Shown here piece by piece: positions 13,005 to 64,000 of a stretch of 64,000 nt of DNA (positions are counted from its first letter, which is position 1; every line of letters begins with the position of its first letter). Source of the DNA: Prochilodus magdalenae (Eukaryota; Chordata; Actinopteri; Characiformes; Prochilodontidae); contig JAMWET010000179.1 of assembly GCA_024036415.1 (NCBI GenBank), positions 1 to 64,000 on the forward strand, read 5' to 3'. The position numbers and the translations under genes were made by a program. The notes beneath the pieces were generated by a model, which worked only from the letters and a program-made list of their open reading frames with translations, did no database searches and had not been told where the DNA came from.

Positions 13005-13120
13005 TCATTTCCTGCGTTTGAAGAGGTTCGTCTGTAATTTCCTGAGGAAAGACACTGGCTGTGGTCTCTCAGTCACATGATTCATCTCTGTCTGAGGCTC
13101 CTCCTCCACGTCATCATAGT
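13005..13120 (-). CDS. Gene A terminal exon: YDDV and stop
   Basis: Acceptor TTATTTTACAG. Encodes DYDDVEEEPQTEMNHVTERP, then a basic end (FLRKLQTNLFKRRK) and TGA. Gene C has the same exon with one extra Glu; gene B has a frameshift here. Confidence 0.85.
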
Positions 13121-14915
13121 CTGTAAAATAAGAACATTAATCTCAAATAACACGTCTTTATTTTATAGCACACTGTATGTCCAACCCAGTACATACAGCA
13201 CTATGTAGGATCTGTTCAGTACTGCAGACTGAAACTCAGATCAAGCTGTTCATTAAAGTCAACCTGAAATCAAAAAGGACCTTTATACCTTCTTAGTTCA
13301 TGTGTCTGATCATATTCAGCTCAGTTCATCACATCACATCACTTATAAAGCTGAATTCTTCTTTACCTGTAATCTTCTATCAGAATGTAACACTGTTTAT
13401 TTATCATATGCCATAAATAATGTAAACATGTTTCAGCAGAATTCCTGTACACAGATTTAAATCTCTCACTCCACCTTCCTCATTCATCTACATCTGAATG
13501 TAGCATCATACACAGCAATATCAGCCACTCACCTTTAACCCCTCCTACATCCTGTCCATCAGTGATGACATCATCATAGCTCTCTGGTGTGTCCACTACA
13601 CCAACATAGGAAGATCAGTTTTAACAGTATGATGTGTTTACTGAGTTGAAGCTTCAGTGTAAATGATTTATCTACATTCAGTAAAACTTACTCAGCATAA
13701 TGTTGGAGTTTGGTCCAGTAACAGCATCATCATAGATATCTGTCATGTCTTCTGTCAGAATGTAGATCAATATCATTAAATCAGCATCAGTATCATCAGT
13801 GACTGTGTTCATGTTGGAGATTACAGTAGTGTTACATCACTAGTCATACCTGCTACAACAGCTGAGCTCTGATCAGCAGTGATGACATCATCATAATCCT
13901 CTGCTATGTCCGCTACACCAAAACACAGAGAAATATAAAGAATATTAAATCATATTTTATACAGTTATATTTATCAGGTGTTTCAGACACAGTCAGTAAT
14001 GTGAGACTGTTTACTTGTTTACAGTAATTTAATCAAAATAAGATTTGGAGTTATGATGAGAATATGCTGTGGGCACTAAAACCCCCTCCTGCTCGTATGT
14101 GTAGATGACCGCTGTAACAGAATGATTCAAAAAGTCATTGTACATATAGACTATCAGATTATTCTATTTTCATAACATTAGTGATGATTTTAATCTCTAC
14201 TTAATCTAAAAACTAAACCCCCAAACACAAACACACCTGCTACACCATCAGAGATCTGTCCAGCAGTGATGACATCATCATAGCTCTCTGCTGGGTCCTC
14301 TTTTGCTGATTCACCTGAATCAAATAAAAGCAGACTGACTTTACAAACAGTGCAGTCATATTTTACACTGTGGTTTAATGTACAGATAAAATCAGGTGAT
14401 TCATTAATAAAGGACCCCCACTTATCAGACCACTGCTGATGACATCATCATAGTATTCTGTCTTTACTCCAGTCAGAGACTTTCCTGCAAACAGAGCAAA
14501 ATGAATCACTTTAATTAAATAGAGAAATAAAATCCTGATTCAGAGACACTTTCAGTGTGTAACTCCATTAAGATCCTGCAGGGAATCATTTCTGAACTAG
14601 AGATCAATCAAACCTCTAATCAGAGAGACACACTAGACTCACTGTTAAAGAGAGTTTCACTCTGAAACAATAAAGAGCTGTAAGTGATACTAGAGAACAT
14701 GAAGAACTGAGTGCTGTGGATCAGTGTGAACTGGGTTAGTTATGGGGACTGATATCAGTGCAGACAGTAGAGGGCGCTCTTAGACACAACACAGATGCAG
14801 ACAAACCCCCTTCCACCTATCCCCTACCAACCCATACCCTTACACACCTACACTACCACACACACATTTATTATTATCCCTCACTCTCTCTCTTCATTCA
14901 GTCTCTCTCTATCTA

Positions 14916-14955
<40 letters not shown>

Positions 14956-60603: not shown

Positions 60604-63600
60604 CTGTAAAATAAGAACATTAATCTCAAACAACACGTCTTTATTTTATAGCACACTGTATGTCCAACCCAGTACATACAGCACTATGTAGCATCTGTTC
60701 AGTACTGCAGACTGAAACTCAGATCAAGCTGTTCATTAAAGTCAACCTGAAATCAAAAAGGACCTTTATACCTTCTTAGTTCATGTGTCTGATCATATTC
60801 AGCTCAGTTCATCACATCACATCACTTATAAAGCTGAATTCTTCTTTACCTGTAATCTTCTATCAGAATGTATCACTGTTTATTTATCATACGCCATAAA
60901 TAATATAAACATGTTTCAGCAGAATTCCTGTACACAGATTTAAATCTCTCCCTCCACCTTCCTCATTCATCTACATCTGAATGTAGCATCATACACAGCA
61001 ATATCAGCCACTCACCTTTAACCCCTCCTACATCCTGTTCATCAGTGATGACATCATCATAGCTCTCTGGTGTGTCCACTACACCAACATAGGAAGATCA
61101 GTTTTAACAGTATGATGTGTTTACTGAGTTGAAGCTTCAGTGTAAATGATTTATCTACATTCAGTAAAACTTACTCAGCATAATGTTGGAGTTTGGTCCA
61201 GTAACAGCATCATCATAGTTATCTGTCATGTCTTCTGTCAGAATGTAGATCAATATCATTAAATCAGCATCAGTATCATCAGTGACTGTGTTCATGTTGG
61301 AGATTACAGTAGTGTTACATCACTAGTCATACCTGTTACAACAGCTGAGCTCTGATCAGCAGTGATGACATCATCATAACCCTCTGCTACGTCCTCTACA
61401 CCAAAACACAGAGAAATATAAAGAATATTAAATCATATTTTATACAGTTATATTTATCAGATGTTTCAGACACAGTCAGTAATGTGAGACTGTTTACTTG
61501 TTTACAGTAATTTAATAAAAATAAGATTTGGAGTTATGATGAGAATATGCTGTGGGCACTAAAACCCCCTCCTGCACGTATGTGTAGATGACCGCTGTAA
61601 CAGAATGATTCAAAAAGTCATTGTACATATAGACTATCAGATTATTCTATTTTCATAACATTAGTGATGATTTTAATCTCTACTTAATCTAAAAACTAAA
61701 ACCCCCAAACACAAACACACCTGCTACACCATCAGAGATCTGTCCAGCAGTGATGACATCATCATAGCTCTCTGCTGGGTCCTCTTTTGCTGATTCACCT
61801 GAATCAAATAAAAGCAGACTGACTTTACAAACAGTGCAGTCATATTTTACACTGTGGTTTAATGTAAAGATAAAATCAGGTGATTCATTAATAAAGGACC
61901 CCCACTTATCAGACCACTGGTGATGACATCATCATAGTATTCTGTCTTTACTCCAGTCAGAGACTTTTCTGCAAACAGAGCAAAATGAATCACTTTAATT
62001 AAATAGAGAAATAAAATCCTGATTCAGAGACACTTTCAGTGTGTAACTCCATTAAGATCCTGCAGGGAATCATTTCTGAACTAGAGATCAATCAAATCTC
62101 TAATCAGAGAGACACACTAGACTCACTGTTAAAGAGAGTTTCACTCTGAAACAATAAAGAGCTGTAAGTGATACTAGAAAACATGAAGAACTAAAATGGA
62201 ACTGAATTAAAGTAAATCACTTTCCTCATAAATACTGGACACTGGGGTGGAAGTAAAACTCCACTGAACACACATATACATGCAGCACATTTGATTATGA
62301 TTCATTTCAAATCTGATCTTTTAGTTTTAGAACTGTGTTGTGCTGCTGCAGACAAATGGTGGTCACATGTAATTCAGTACATATGACTGATTAAATATGA
62401 CTGAACACATGTAATCAGTTACTCCACAGATTCAGTGCTGTGTTTCAGATATTACAATTACTCTCAAACATTAGATTTAATATTTATATATAATATTTAA
62501 TATATAATAAACATGTTCATAATGAAGCCTCTCATTTCTAAATGGTGAGTGTAATATTTCTCAGTGTAGTGGAGTTTAACACACATGGTCCTCTTACCTG
62601 AGAGAAGCTCCTCATCCACATCCTCATATCCTGAATGCTGTGCTTCAGAGAGGACACTTCCTGTTAGAGGAGAACAGAACATAAACACATTCAGAATACA
62701 GAACCTCCCACAATCCCCTGAGTGCTGTGGATCAGTGTGAACTGGGTTAGTTATGGGGAGTGATATCAGTGCAGACAGTAGAGGGCGCTCTTAGACAGAA
62801 CACAGAGGCGGACAACCCCACCCTCCTCCACCTATGTCCTTCCAACCCATACCCTTGCACACTCACACTACCACACACACATTTATTATTATCCCTCTCT
62901 CTCTCTCTCTCTTTTCATTCAGTCTCTCTCTCTCTCTAAATATAATATAATATAATATTAATTCTAAAATTCTACATTTCAGTAAAACTATCATTTATGA
63001 AACATGTATGTAGAGATGAATTCCTGTATTTCTATATTGTGACTGTAATGTGTCTCAGTGGACACACACATGTTCTGGTCTTTTACCTGAGAGAAGATCC
63101 TCATCCACATCCTCATATTCTTCAGAGAAGATACTTCCTGTTAGAGGAGAACAGAACAGTCATGAAACACAGAATGCAGAACCCCCACAATCCTCTGAGT
63201 GGTGTGGGTCATTAGGATCTACAGGCAGGGAACAAGTTAAAGAAGGAGAACTGAATAAATGAGTGGAGAATGTGCAGGTGCTTCCACACAGGTGTGCTGC
63301 ATGATACAGTTAACCATTTAACATCCGGCCATGCTCTGTGATATGTGTACAAATGCTGATCGTCCCCAGTTCACCTTGATCTTGGCTTAAGAAGGTCAAA
63401 GTAAAAGATCTGAGTGTCTCTGAAAGAGGGTTTATTGTTGAGGCATGGAGCTTCAGTCCTAAAGTCTGCTCACTGGCTAGTGTTCCAGTAAGAACAGAGA
63501 CTAAAGGGACTAAATCTGTATTTAGATCTTTGGGAAAGACATCAGTAAACAGGGCTGGACATTGTGGGGTAAAGGGCACATTCAGTGATCCTGATACTGG

Positions 63601-64000
63601 TGTATTACTGTGATATGGAACAAACAGAAAAGGAACTGTTATTATTTTATTTATTATTAAACTGTATTTAACGTACACAGTCATGGACATATAATACTGG
63701 ACATATAATACTGGACATATAACACTGGACATATAATACTGGACATATAATACTGGACATATAACACTGGACATATAATACTGGACATATAACACTGGAC
63801 ATATGGCCTGATGATTTATTGCTTAGCTGTCAGTAAGTTTAATGGATCTAAATTAAAATCAGGTGTAGAAATGATATAAAGCTGTCTGTCCACTCGGACC
63901 ACTCTGTAAACTGAGAGTGCTCTAAAACCAAAGCCGAGATTAATCTCAGAGTATATGTAAAATCATTCCTGAAACATTAGAATGATTTTAAGCTCCACCA
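60485..64000 (-). CDS. Gene C: third SRCR receptor, cytoplasmic tail only
   Basis: 3' end of a third tandem paralogue whose ectodomain lies beyond the right edge. Eight tail exons are visible in transcription order: 63087-63137, 62598-62660, 61906-61968, 61721-61798, 61333-61395, 61175-61234, 61016-61078, 60485-60603. All internal junctions are phase 1. Exons and introns are almost identical to gene A over 13.0-15.6 kb, pointing to a recent duplication or gene conversion. Gene C keeps a YEDV exon (62,598-62,660) that gene A has lost. Eight tyrosine motifs are visible. Confidence 0.8.
61016..61078 (-). CDS. Gene C tail exon: YDDVITDE
   Basis: 63-nt phase 1-1 exon, VDTPESYDDVITDEQDVGG and VK; Glu where gene A has Gly. 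Confidence 0.82.
61175..61234 (-). CDS. Gene C tail exon: YDDAV
   Basis: 60-nt phase 1-1 exon, EDMTDNYDDAVTGPNSNIML. Confidence 0.82.
61333..61395 (-). CDS. Gene C tail exon: YDDVITAD
   Basis: 63-nt phase 1-1 exon, EDVAEGYDDVITADQSSAVV and T. Confidence 0.82.
61721..61798 (-). CDS. Gene C tail exon: YDDVITAG
   Basis: 78-nt phase 1-1 exon, GESAKEDPAESYDDVITAGQ and ISDGVA; protein identical to the gene A exon. Confidence 0.82.
61906..61968 (-). CDS. Gene C tail exon: YYDDVI
   Basis: 63-nt phase 1-1 exon, EKSLTGVKTEYYDDVITSGL and I; weak GTGGGG donor as in gene A. Confidence 0.72.
62598..62660 (-). CDS. Gene C tail exon: YEDV (second)
   Basis: 63-nt phase 1-1 exon, GSVLSEAQHSGYEDVDEELL and S. 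Present in gene B, deleted from gene A. Confidence 0.82.
63087..63137 (-). CDS. Gene C tail exon: YEDV (first visible)
   Basis: 51-nt phase 1-1 exon, GSIFSEEYEDVDEDLLS. The next exon upstream (expected YEEI) lies outside the window. Confidence 0.82.
63684..63803. repeat. Short-unit VNTR (TGGACATATAATAC)n
   Basis: About nine copies of a 14-base unit; expanded relative to 15,600-15,682. Confidence 0.9.
63804..64000 (-). other. Gene C intron, right window edge
   Basis: No exon seen. Confidence 0.5.

Follow-up and report, generated by a model that had tools for sequence, protein, structure and literature searches.

One tyrosine motif per tail exon in a tandem SRCR receptor cluster of Prochilodus magdalenae

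Introduction

Can a receptor gene change the number of docking sites in its cytoplasmic tail exon by exon, with the reading frame left undamaged? The question is raised by a 64,000-nucleotide stretch of Prochilodus magdalenae DNA (GCA_024036415.1, contig JAMWET010000179.1, positions 1 to 64,000; hereafter the window), the minus strand of which carries gene A (10 SRCR exons), gene B (13 SRCR exons), and the tail of gene C. A sequence-only reading of the window had claimed that each tail is a run of 51-96-nt phase 1-1 exons, nearly all of them with a single tyrosine motif. Our analysis confirmed that the tandem SRCR cluster with one tyrosine motif per tail exon is real. We further propose, at a probability of roughly 60%, that all three genes encode group B SRCR receptors of a WC1/CD163c-alpha-like type, the tails of which would act as multivalent phosphotyrosine docking arrays of exon modules. 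SRCR exons were mapped by hidden Markov model and tail exons by splice sites, and all gene models were built from genomic DNA of a draft assembly (1.18 Gb, 7790 contigs).

Organization of the tail exons

The tails of genes A, B, and C were found to consist of runs of 51-96-nt phase 1-1 exons, each with exactly one Y-E/D-D/E-V/A/I motif, and the earlier claim was thus borne out (motif exons: A, 8; B, 6; C, 8 in the window and one outside it). YEEI comes first, YEDV occupies the next one or two exons, and after these come exons with YDDV, a single exon with YDDA, and a terminal exon that again bears YDDV. In gene A (coordinates here and below are window positions on the minus strand unless stated otherwise), the modules are T1 (YEEI, 96 nt, 19728-19823), YEDV1 (51 nt, 15005-15055), T4 (YYDDV, 14416-14484, 69 nt, or 63 nt with the alternative donor at 14422), T5 (YDDV, 78 nt, 14237-14314), T6 (YDDV, 63 nt, 13850-13912), T7 (YDDA, 60 nt, 13692-13751), T8 (YDDV, 63 nt, 13533-13595), and the terminal exon T9 (YDDV and stop, 13005-13120). 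Gene B has T1 (YEEI, 96 nt, 35259-35354), YEDV2 (63 nt, 34449-34511), T5 (YDDV, 78 nt, 33737-33814), T7 (YDDA, 60 nt, 33484-33543), T8 (YDDV, 51 nt, 33321-33371), and a YDDV terminal exon (31765-31814) shorter than those of A and C. Gene C, of which the tail alone lies in the window (60485-63137), has YEDV1 (63087-63137), YEDV2 (62598-62660), T4 (YYDDV, 61900-61968), T5 (YDDV, 61721-61798), T6 (YDDV, 61333-61395), T7 (YDDA, 61175-61234), T8 (YDDV, 61016-61078), and T9 (YDDV and stop, 60485-60603); its YEEI exon T1 is found outside the window at contig positions 69744-69839. A fourth tail of the same kind (L006) lies further along the contig. The motif tyrosines are spaced 19-25 residues apart in 15 of 19 intervals. 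One candidate exon of gene A, T2 (17648-17705), was 58 nt long with no motif and a broken phase, and was left out of the model.

The arrangement was then examined across the genome, where the 17-base pattern TAYGAYGAYGTSATCAC was detected in 190 copies compared with 5 for a reversed control. With the first 100 of the 190 places listed, the analysis covered 20 tail stretches and a further stretch lying upstream of the gene C tail; A, B, and C together with L001-L021 form a non-random sample of 24 sequences. Motif sites with usable splice sites numbered 170 on the coding strand and 4 on the opposite strand. When the best acceptor and best donor around each coding-strand motif were taken with no phase imposed, phase 1-1 was obtained at 129 of the 170 sites and at 73 of the 78 where both splice sites score well, compared with none of the 4 on the opposite strand. 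Sites of the phase pair (2,0) resembled terminal exons in 21 of 25 cases as read by eye, as terminal exons have no true donor. All 128 called exons had exactly one motif; the caller accepted exons that held one motif or more and had a length in multiples of 3, and 3 of the 128 (B, L007, and L010) are terminal exons called as internal. Aspartate stood at the +2 position in 63 of 63 distinct exons here and in 418 of 426 cross-species windows, the latter chosen with D or E allowed at +2. The YxxV/I class to which the sequence-only reading had assigned these motifs was sharpened to a narrower motif, in which an acidic residue at +1 and D at +2 are both usual.

Selection on motif and linker codons

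Codon differences were compared between the motif and the linkers that separate one motif from the next. In a motif-blind test, modules were found by DNA homology, giving 57 distinct ungapped alignments (39 further matches were set aside for gaps), with terminal exons and the reference genes A, B, and C excluded from the targets. The ratio of nonsynonymous to synonymous differences per site (pN/pS) was 0.07 for motif codons (N 3.0/542.0, S 8.0/106.0) and 1.23 for linker codons (N 173.5/2082.3, S 43.5/641.7). Where all four motif codons were covered, the motif was lost in none of the alignments, with E, N, and A/I variants counted as kept. Comparison between and within two tail clades, for which the choice of exons required the motif, gave motif ratios of 0.17, 0.00, 0.00, and 0.10 versus 0.66, 0.92, 2.34, and 0.89 for the other codons. 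The motif is therefore under strong purifying selection and the linkers are not.

The same figures bear on a reading in which the motifs are unphosphorylated YxxPhi sorting signals for clathrin adaptors, the array speeds ligand uptake, and the acidic residues are incidental. Scavenger receptors are endocytic, and YEEI, YEDV, and YDDV all fit YxxPhi, which is matched by 7 of 10 tyrosines in A, 5 of 7 in B, and 7 of 9 in the available part of C. A YxxPhi signal, however, needs no D at +2, yet this residue is nearly invariant in the exons and windows counted above; the recurrent YDDA module has no bulky residue at +3; and linkers evolve freely while motif codons do not. We regard this endocytic explanation as decidedly unlikely.

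A separate observation concerns the DNA spelling of the motif, which in T4, T5, T6, and T8 was TATGATGATGTCATCAC in 98 of the 100 listed places (of 190), even between diverged modules; the 17-base pattern itself permits 16 spellings. Recent spread, conversion, or a splicing signal are possible reasons for this uniformity.

Gain and loss of tail exons among paralogues

The sequence-only reading had also held that motif exons could change in number without frame damage, through unequal crossing-over or splicing. Comparison of paralogues added direct cases of gain and loss to this claim, with splicing suggested only by predicted protein models (see below). The A and C tails are 98.5% identical over 1722 bp, and gene A is without a 525-bp block equivalent to C 62193-62717 that contains the YEDV2 exon, with the frame undamaged (the place of the missing block in A is 14707-14708). 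Ten tails were selected from the 24 stretches and aligned: YEDV2 was missing at the same place in A and L004 and kept in the other 8; L004 has a further 8-bp difference beside the gap, and L012 keeps the exon with a 4-base insertion. YEDV2 of gene C is itself a tandem duplicate of YEDV1 that includes flanking intron (75.7% identity over 206 bp). In gene B, no homology to YEDV1, T4, or T6 was detected at an E-value of 1e-4.

The possibility that such differences are assembly or gene-model artefacts was weighed against the condition of the sequences concerned. Modules that had no called exon in L007, L012, L015, and L016 were mostly affected by scattered small indels, which in L012 extend through the introns; module indels were several in these four stretches and one or two in L018, L020, and L008. 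In the first four, the pattern looks like unpolished assembly, with decay the less probable reading, and many deposited proteins are partial or fused models, both of which would favour an artefact. Counter to this, the YEDV2 loss takes the form of a single clean gap of 525 bp, seen in two separate contigs of otherwise intact sequence, and gene B, although intact in its remaining exons, retains nothing recognizable of three modules. An artefactual origin for the differences in exon number is thus highly improbable.

Alternative splicing of tail exons

Evidence for splicing as a source of variation was sought in deposited proteins and splice sites. Two Astyanax proteins, P0095 and P0118 (named isoforms X28 and X10 of one product), match at 1376 of 1377 aligned residues; what sets them apart is a 204-residue block of the ectodomain and a single tail module of 25 residues. 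An eel pair, P0151 and P0154, is one YEDV module apart; as its members are identical at only 1344 of 1392 residues and may be paralogues, it was not used as splicing evidence. Within P. magdalenae, the donors available to T4 in genes A and C are all weak (gtcctt or gtgggg), with a best donor score of -0.3 in the A/C clade versus 5.7 in the second clade, which makes T4 a candidate for skipping. Module number is probably set mainly by the gene, and splicing may form a second layer.

Tail relatives in other fishes

The sequence-only reading had pointed to other teleost WC1-like genes, and comparison with such genes found the same tail plan, out to gar and bowfin. A search with the tail found 232 proteins at E-values up to 0.001, of which 120 were listed; from the names given, we take all 120 to be from Ostariophysi. 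Motif counts ranged from 1 to 18, with 7 the commonest, in the 114 of the 120 with a separable tail, and these counts are to be read with caution as many of the deposited proteins are partial or fused gene models. Brachyhypopomus P0028 and P0029 have an exact repeat of a YEDV module. Labeo P0044 and P0070 were observed to have at least 18 YDDV-type motifs in repeated blocks, which may reflect either a true expansion of exons or the fusion of gene models.

A search with an eel tail extended beyond Ostariophysi, with Anguilla, Synaphobranchus, Conger, Gymnothorax, Megalops, Albula, Scleropages, Paramormyrops, Brienomyrus, Sardina, Alosa, Amia, and Lepisosteus among the matches listed. Twenty-two tails were hand-selected from this search, covering eels, tarpon, bonefish, bony-tongues, herrings, milkfish, gar, and bowfin; all had YEEI/L and 17 had the terminal YDDV. 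The gar and bowfin tails have 5 motifs each, and the YDDA module recurs from gar to characins. As the plan is present in gar and bowfin, we infer that it is likely older than the teleosts and grew in Ostariophysi. A search with the tail alone gave 28 matches, including SRCR proteins, tail-only models with no precomputed domain, and one protein with another domain (P0126). With regard to orthology to mammalian WC1, the depositors' name 'antigen WC1.1-like' was frequent among the matches listed, but by name no mammal stands among the 120 listed in either search.

Whether modules are lost as exons was assessed with losses of at least 12 residues, scored against a composite tail with known exon junctions and compared with 2000 random placements. 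The sample was 84 tails, as 28 of the 120 proteins had no anchor and 8 of the remaining 92 tails (over 330 residues) were left out. A total of 87 losses were found in 64 of the 84 tails. Both ends fell within 3 residues of junctions in 56 of the 87 (random mean 10.1, maximum 20), with 31 of these 56 being one recurrent gap exactly 3 residues off the junctions; at 2 residues the figure was 24 of 87 (random mean 5.2, maximum 13). When distinct loss classes were counted, 14 of 37 passed at 3 residues (random mean 4.2, maximum 10) and 12 of 37 at 2 residues (random mean 2.2, maximum 8). The excess at junctions thus stands, though at less strength than the first figure would imply.

These comparisons also speak to the view of a neutral drift in tail exon number through tandem duplication and deletion, in which every module binds a partner but the number of modules is functionally meaningless. 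Such drift would fit the spread of 1 to 18 motifs in 114 predicted proteins (some of them partial or fused models), the differing module number of near-identical paralogues, and the ease with which short phase 1-1 exons are gained and lost. The modules nonetheless retain their motif under purifying selection, and the first and last are kept in most of the 22 distant-fish tails, where free drift would blur them. We consider neutral drift in module number unlikely.

Proposed signalling role of the tail array

The pattern Y[DE][DE][VI] occurs 7 times in the tail of A, 5 times in B, and 7 times in the available part of C, with the YEEI of A and of B accounting for one each. Within it, the putative docking core Y[DE]D[VI] of SLP-76/Nck tails, of the CD6, ADAP, and nephrin type, is present in the tails of all three genes. 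Other tyrosine signals were rejected as the repeated unit. The immunoreceptor tyrosine-based activation motif (YxxL/I-x(6-12)-YxxL/I) and the immunoreceptor tyrosine-based switch motif (TxYxx[VI]) each had 0 matches in the tails of A, B, and the C part. The immunoreceptor tyrosine-based inhibitory motif, in its loose form [ILVS]xYxx[ILV], matched 0, 1, and 1 times in A, B, and C, respectively, and is thus not the unit that is repeated.

The binding partners of this core are known from other proteins. An ADAP pYDDV peptide pulls down SLP-76, Nck1/2, PLCG1, PIK3R1, RasGAP, CRK, and GADS, and in the yeast test reported in the same study direct binding was seen for SLP-76 and Nck, with no growth for PIK3R1, RasGAP, CRK, or Gads (PMC2908683). 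The YDxV sites of nephrin bind Nck (PMC12203975), and the adaptor level needed for nephrin to cluster varies strongly with whether three, two, or one phosphotyrosines are present, with clustering sometimes absent altogether (PMC4238058). For WC1, tyrosine phosphorylation of YEEL is required for co-stimulation (PMC2906472), and fyn, blk, and lyn are able to phosphorylate the receptor (PMC8356672). With regard to the gamma-delta T-cell expression that marks WC1, the pointer is indirect: in cod, T cells with putative tcrg/tcrd express an m130-like SRCR gene (PMC9276791).

YEEI is the preferred ligand of Src-family SH2 domains, Y662 of CD6 lies in the sequence YDDI, and a tail of the present kind is expected to be disordered; solved structures exist for SRCR relatives. 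CD6 pY662 binds the SLP-76 SH2 domain at 0.3-2 uM (PMC5440646). From the measured SLP-76/Nck binding of pYDDV and the WC1 phosphorylation described above, we propose a Src-kinase anchor followed by an SLP-76/Nck array. Ligand clustering would bring in Src-family kinases, the SH2 domain of which would hold the membrane-proximal pYEEI as an anchor. The anchored kinases would then phosphorylate the downstream YEDV and YDDV sites, and pYDDV/pYEDV may recruit SLP-76 (with GADS, Vav, Tec kinases, and PLC-gamma) and/or Nck, leading to co-receptor signalling and actin assembly. Module number would set valency and hence the threshold for adaptor clustering, as in nephrin, such that gain or loss of one tail exon should shift signalling strength stepwise.

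Several points weigh against the docking array and its exon-wise tuning. With regard to the motifs, (i) the YDDA modules would not be typical SLP-76/Nck sites, (ii) YDDV also fits the loose endocytic pattern YxxPhi, and (iii) some modules in other species are without the tyrosine or the core (e.g., P0018, P0023, and P0028). With regard to splicing, the optional Astyanax module carries YDVI rather than YDDV, tail splicing is suggested by database gene models of Astyanax, and the bovine WC1 study reports no alternative splicing in the tail, with tail length going by gene (PMC2681482), which makes the splicing arm of the sequence-only reading weaker. As for the tests, the junction result depends on the tolerance chosen (3 versus 2 residues), and the rows of the selection tests are related sequences, so that they provide contrasts and not independent tests. 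In addition, the assembly is a draft with indel-bearing modules, and some paralogues may be haplotype copies.

Gene models, family size, and neighbouring sequence

Eight cysteines per domain are a mark of group B SRCR proteins. These were found in 10 of 10 SRCR exons of gene A and 10 of 13 of gene B (the other B exons have 9, 9, and 6), and with tandem SRCR domains of one exon each, genes A and B belong to the group B SRCR superfamily. Gene A (13005-27101) forms a single open model of 1359 residues and stop, with 10 SRCR stretches recognized in Pfam (PF00530). Its order is a signal peptide (MDSCVVLILLSSTITLSTA; 27044-27101), 10 SRCR domains and an interdomain exon (ectodomain 20471-26572; interdomain exon 20896-20967), a Thr-rich stalk (20167-20244), a membrane span (19953-20075), and the tail. 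SRCR1 of gene A is without the usual donor, and the model takes a donor at 26240. Gene B (31765-54971) has its signal-peptide exon (54914-54971; 94% identity over 144 bp with the matching region of A) 8 kb upstream of the first SRCR exon, followed by 13 SRCR exons with one GC donor after SRCR7 (36862-46522), and by a stalk exon (35724-35777) and transmembrane exon (35484-35642) that together span 35484-35777.

The SRCR exons in 22951-26567 and 41947-46517 are of two sequence types, which alternate; for one type, some of the A and B copies share 94-98% identity, which suggests recent duplication or gene conversion of ectodomain exons. Across the genome, a first look gave 1701 SRCR candidates, with 150 scored and all of these above the cut-off; 96 YEEI exon candidates, of which 40 were scored at 90-100% identity; and 127 YEDV2 exon candidates, of which 40 were scored at 95-100% identity, all of which counts may mix true genes, haplotype copies, and fragments.

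Other observations concern the sequence around these genes. The first tail intron of gene A includes a 0.88-kb direct duplication (16770-17649 and 18820-19698, 97.7% identical) that adjoins GTGA-rich minisatellite sequence. The long first intron of B (46600-50500) contains what resembles, by eye, a decayed long interspersed nuclear element, and the single open reading frame tested within it matched no Pfam family. On the plus strand, and hence oppositely oriented, a decayed tail of this type is seen at 300-1700, with YEDV and YDDV motifs among stops and frame breaks, and an inverted 84-85% match to the region upstream of the A and B signal-peptide exons lies at 4030-4252, which is probably the promoter relic of an inverted paralogue. 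Six open reading frames between 49.9 and 59.4 kb gave no Pfam family at 0.01, and Rfam gave no match at the gathering score in the window.

Relation to known receptors and significance

Bovine WC1 tails, like those described here, contain YDDA and a terminal YDDV. Mammalian WC1/CD163c-alpha (SCART) receptors likewise form a multi-gene group B SRCR family with one SRCR domain per exon and a membrane-proximal Y(E/Q)(E/D/C)(L/I) that in WC1 is needed for co-stimulation (PMC2681482, PMC2906472); the equivalent here is the YEEI of T1 in A, B, and C, with that of C outside the window. The bovine WC1 tail has 4, 5, or 6 exons by gene type (PMC2681482), whereas in the present genes the tail exons, each with a single motif, number 6 to 9 and include repeated YDDV modules. 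CD6 is also a group B SRCR receptor of the T cell that binds SLP-76, but it relies on a single site for SLP-76 and another for GADS; the tails of A, B, and C contain no Y.N (Grb2/GADS-type) motif. ADAP shares the YDDV core with measured SLP-76 and Nck binding (PMC2908683), yet it is a cytosolic adaptor with two YDDV and one YDDI and not a receptor array. The YDxV tail of nephrin and the YxxP domain of p130Cas are arrays of one repeated phosphotyrosine motif, the latter with 15 YxxP repeats that Src-family kinases can phosphorylate (PMC3983058). Motif number that varies between genes by exon modules is salient in the present case, and no description of this was found for those two. The A/B/C tail is thus an enlarged variant of the WC1/CD163c-alpha tail plan. 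Gene-dependent tail exon number was already known from bovine WC1; the apparent novelty lies in the enlarged run of single-motif exons that are nearly identical, the selection signature, the exon-wise gain and loss in close paralogues, and the depth within ray-finned fishes. By title or abstract, no description of fish SRCR tail arrays was found in the open-licence literature, which is weak evidence of absence.

A broader and tentative idea, to which we give somewhat less than even odds, is that this vertebrate receptor family encodes SH2-docking valency exon by exon. As single-motif exons arise, disappear, or are optionally spliced, dozens of paralogues would each acquire a signalling threshold of their own, as perhaps would individual cells, an arrangement kept since the common ancestor of gar and teleosts. 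If true, the family would provide a valency series occurring in nature, its receptors graded by how many near-identical docking sites each carries, the relationship of phosphotyrosine valency to immune signalling threshold would become testable with native genes, and the WC1 co-receptor idea would extend to fishes with very large SRCR families.

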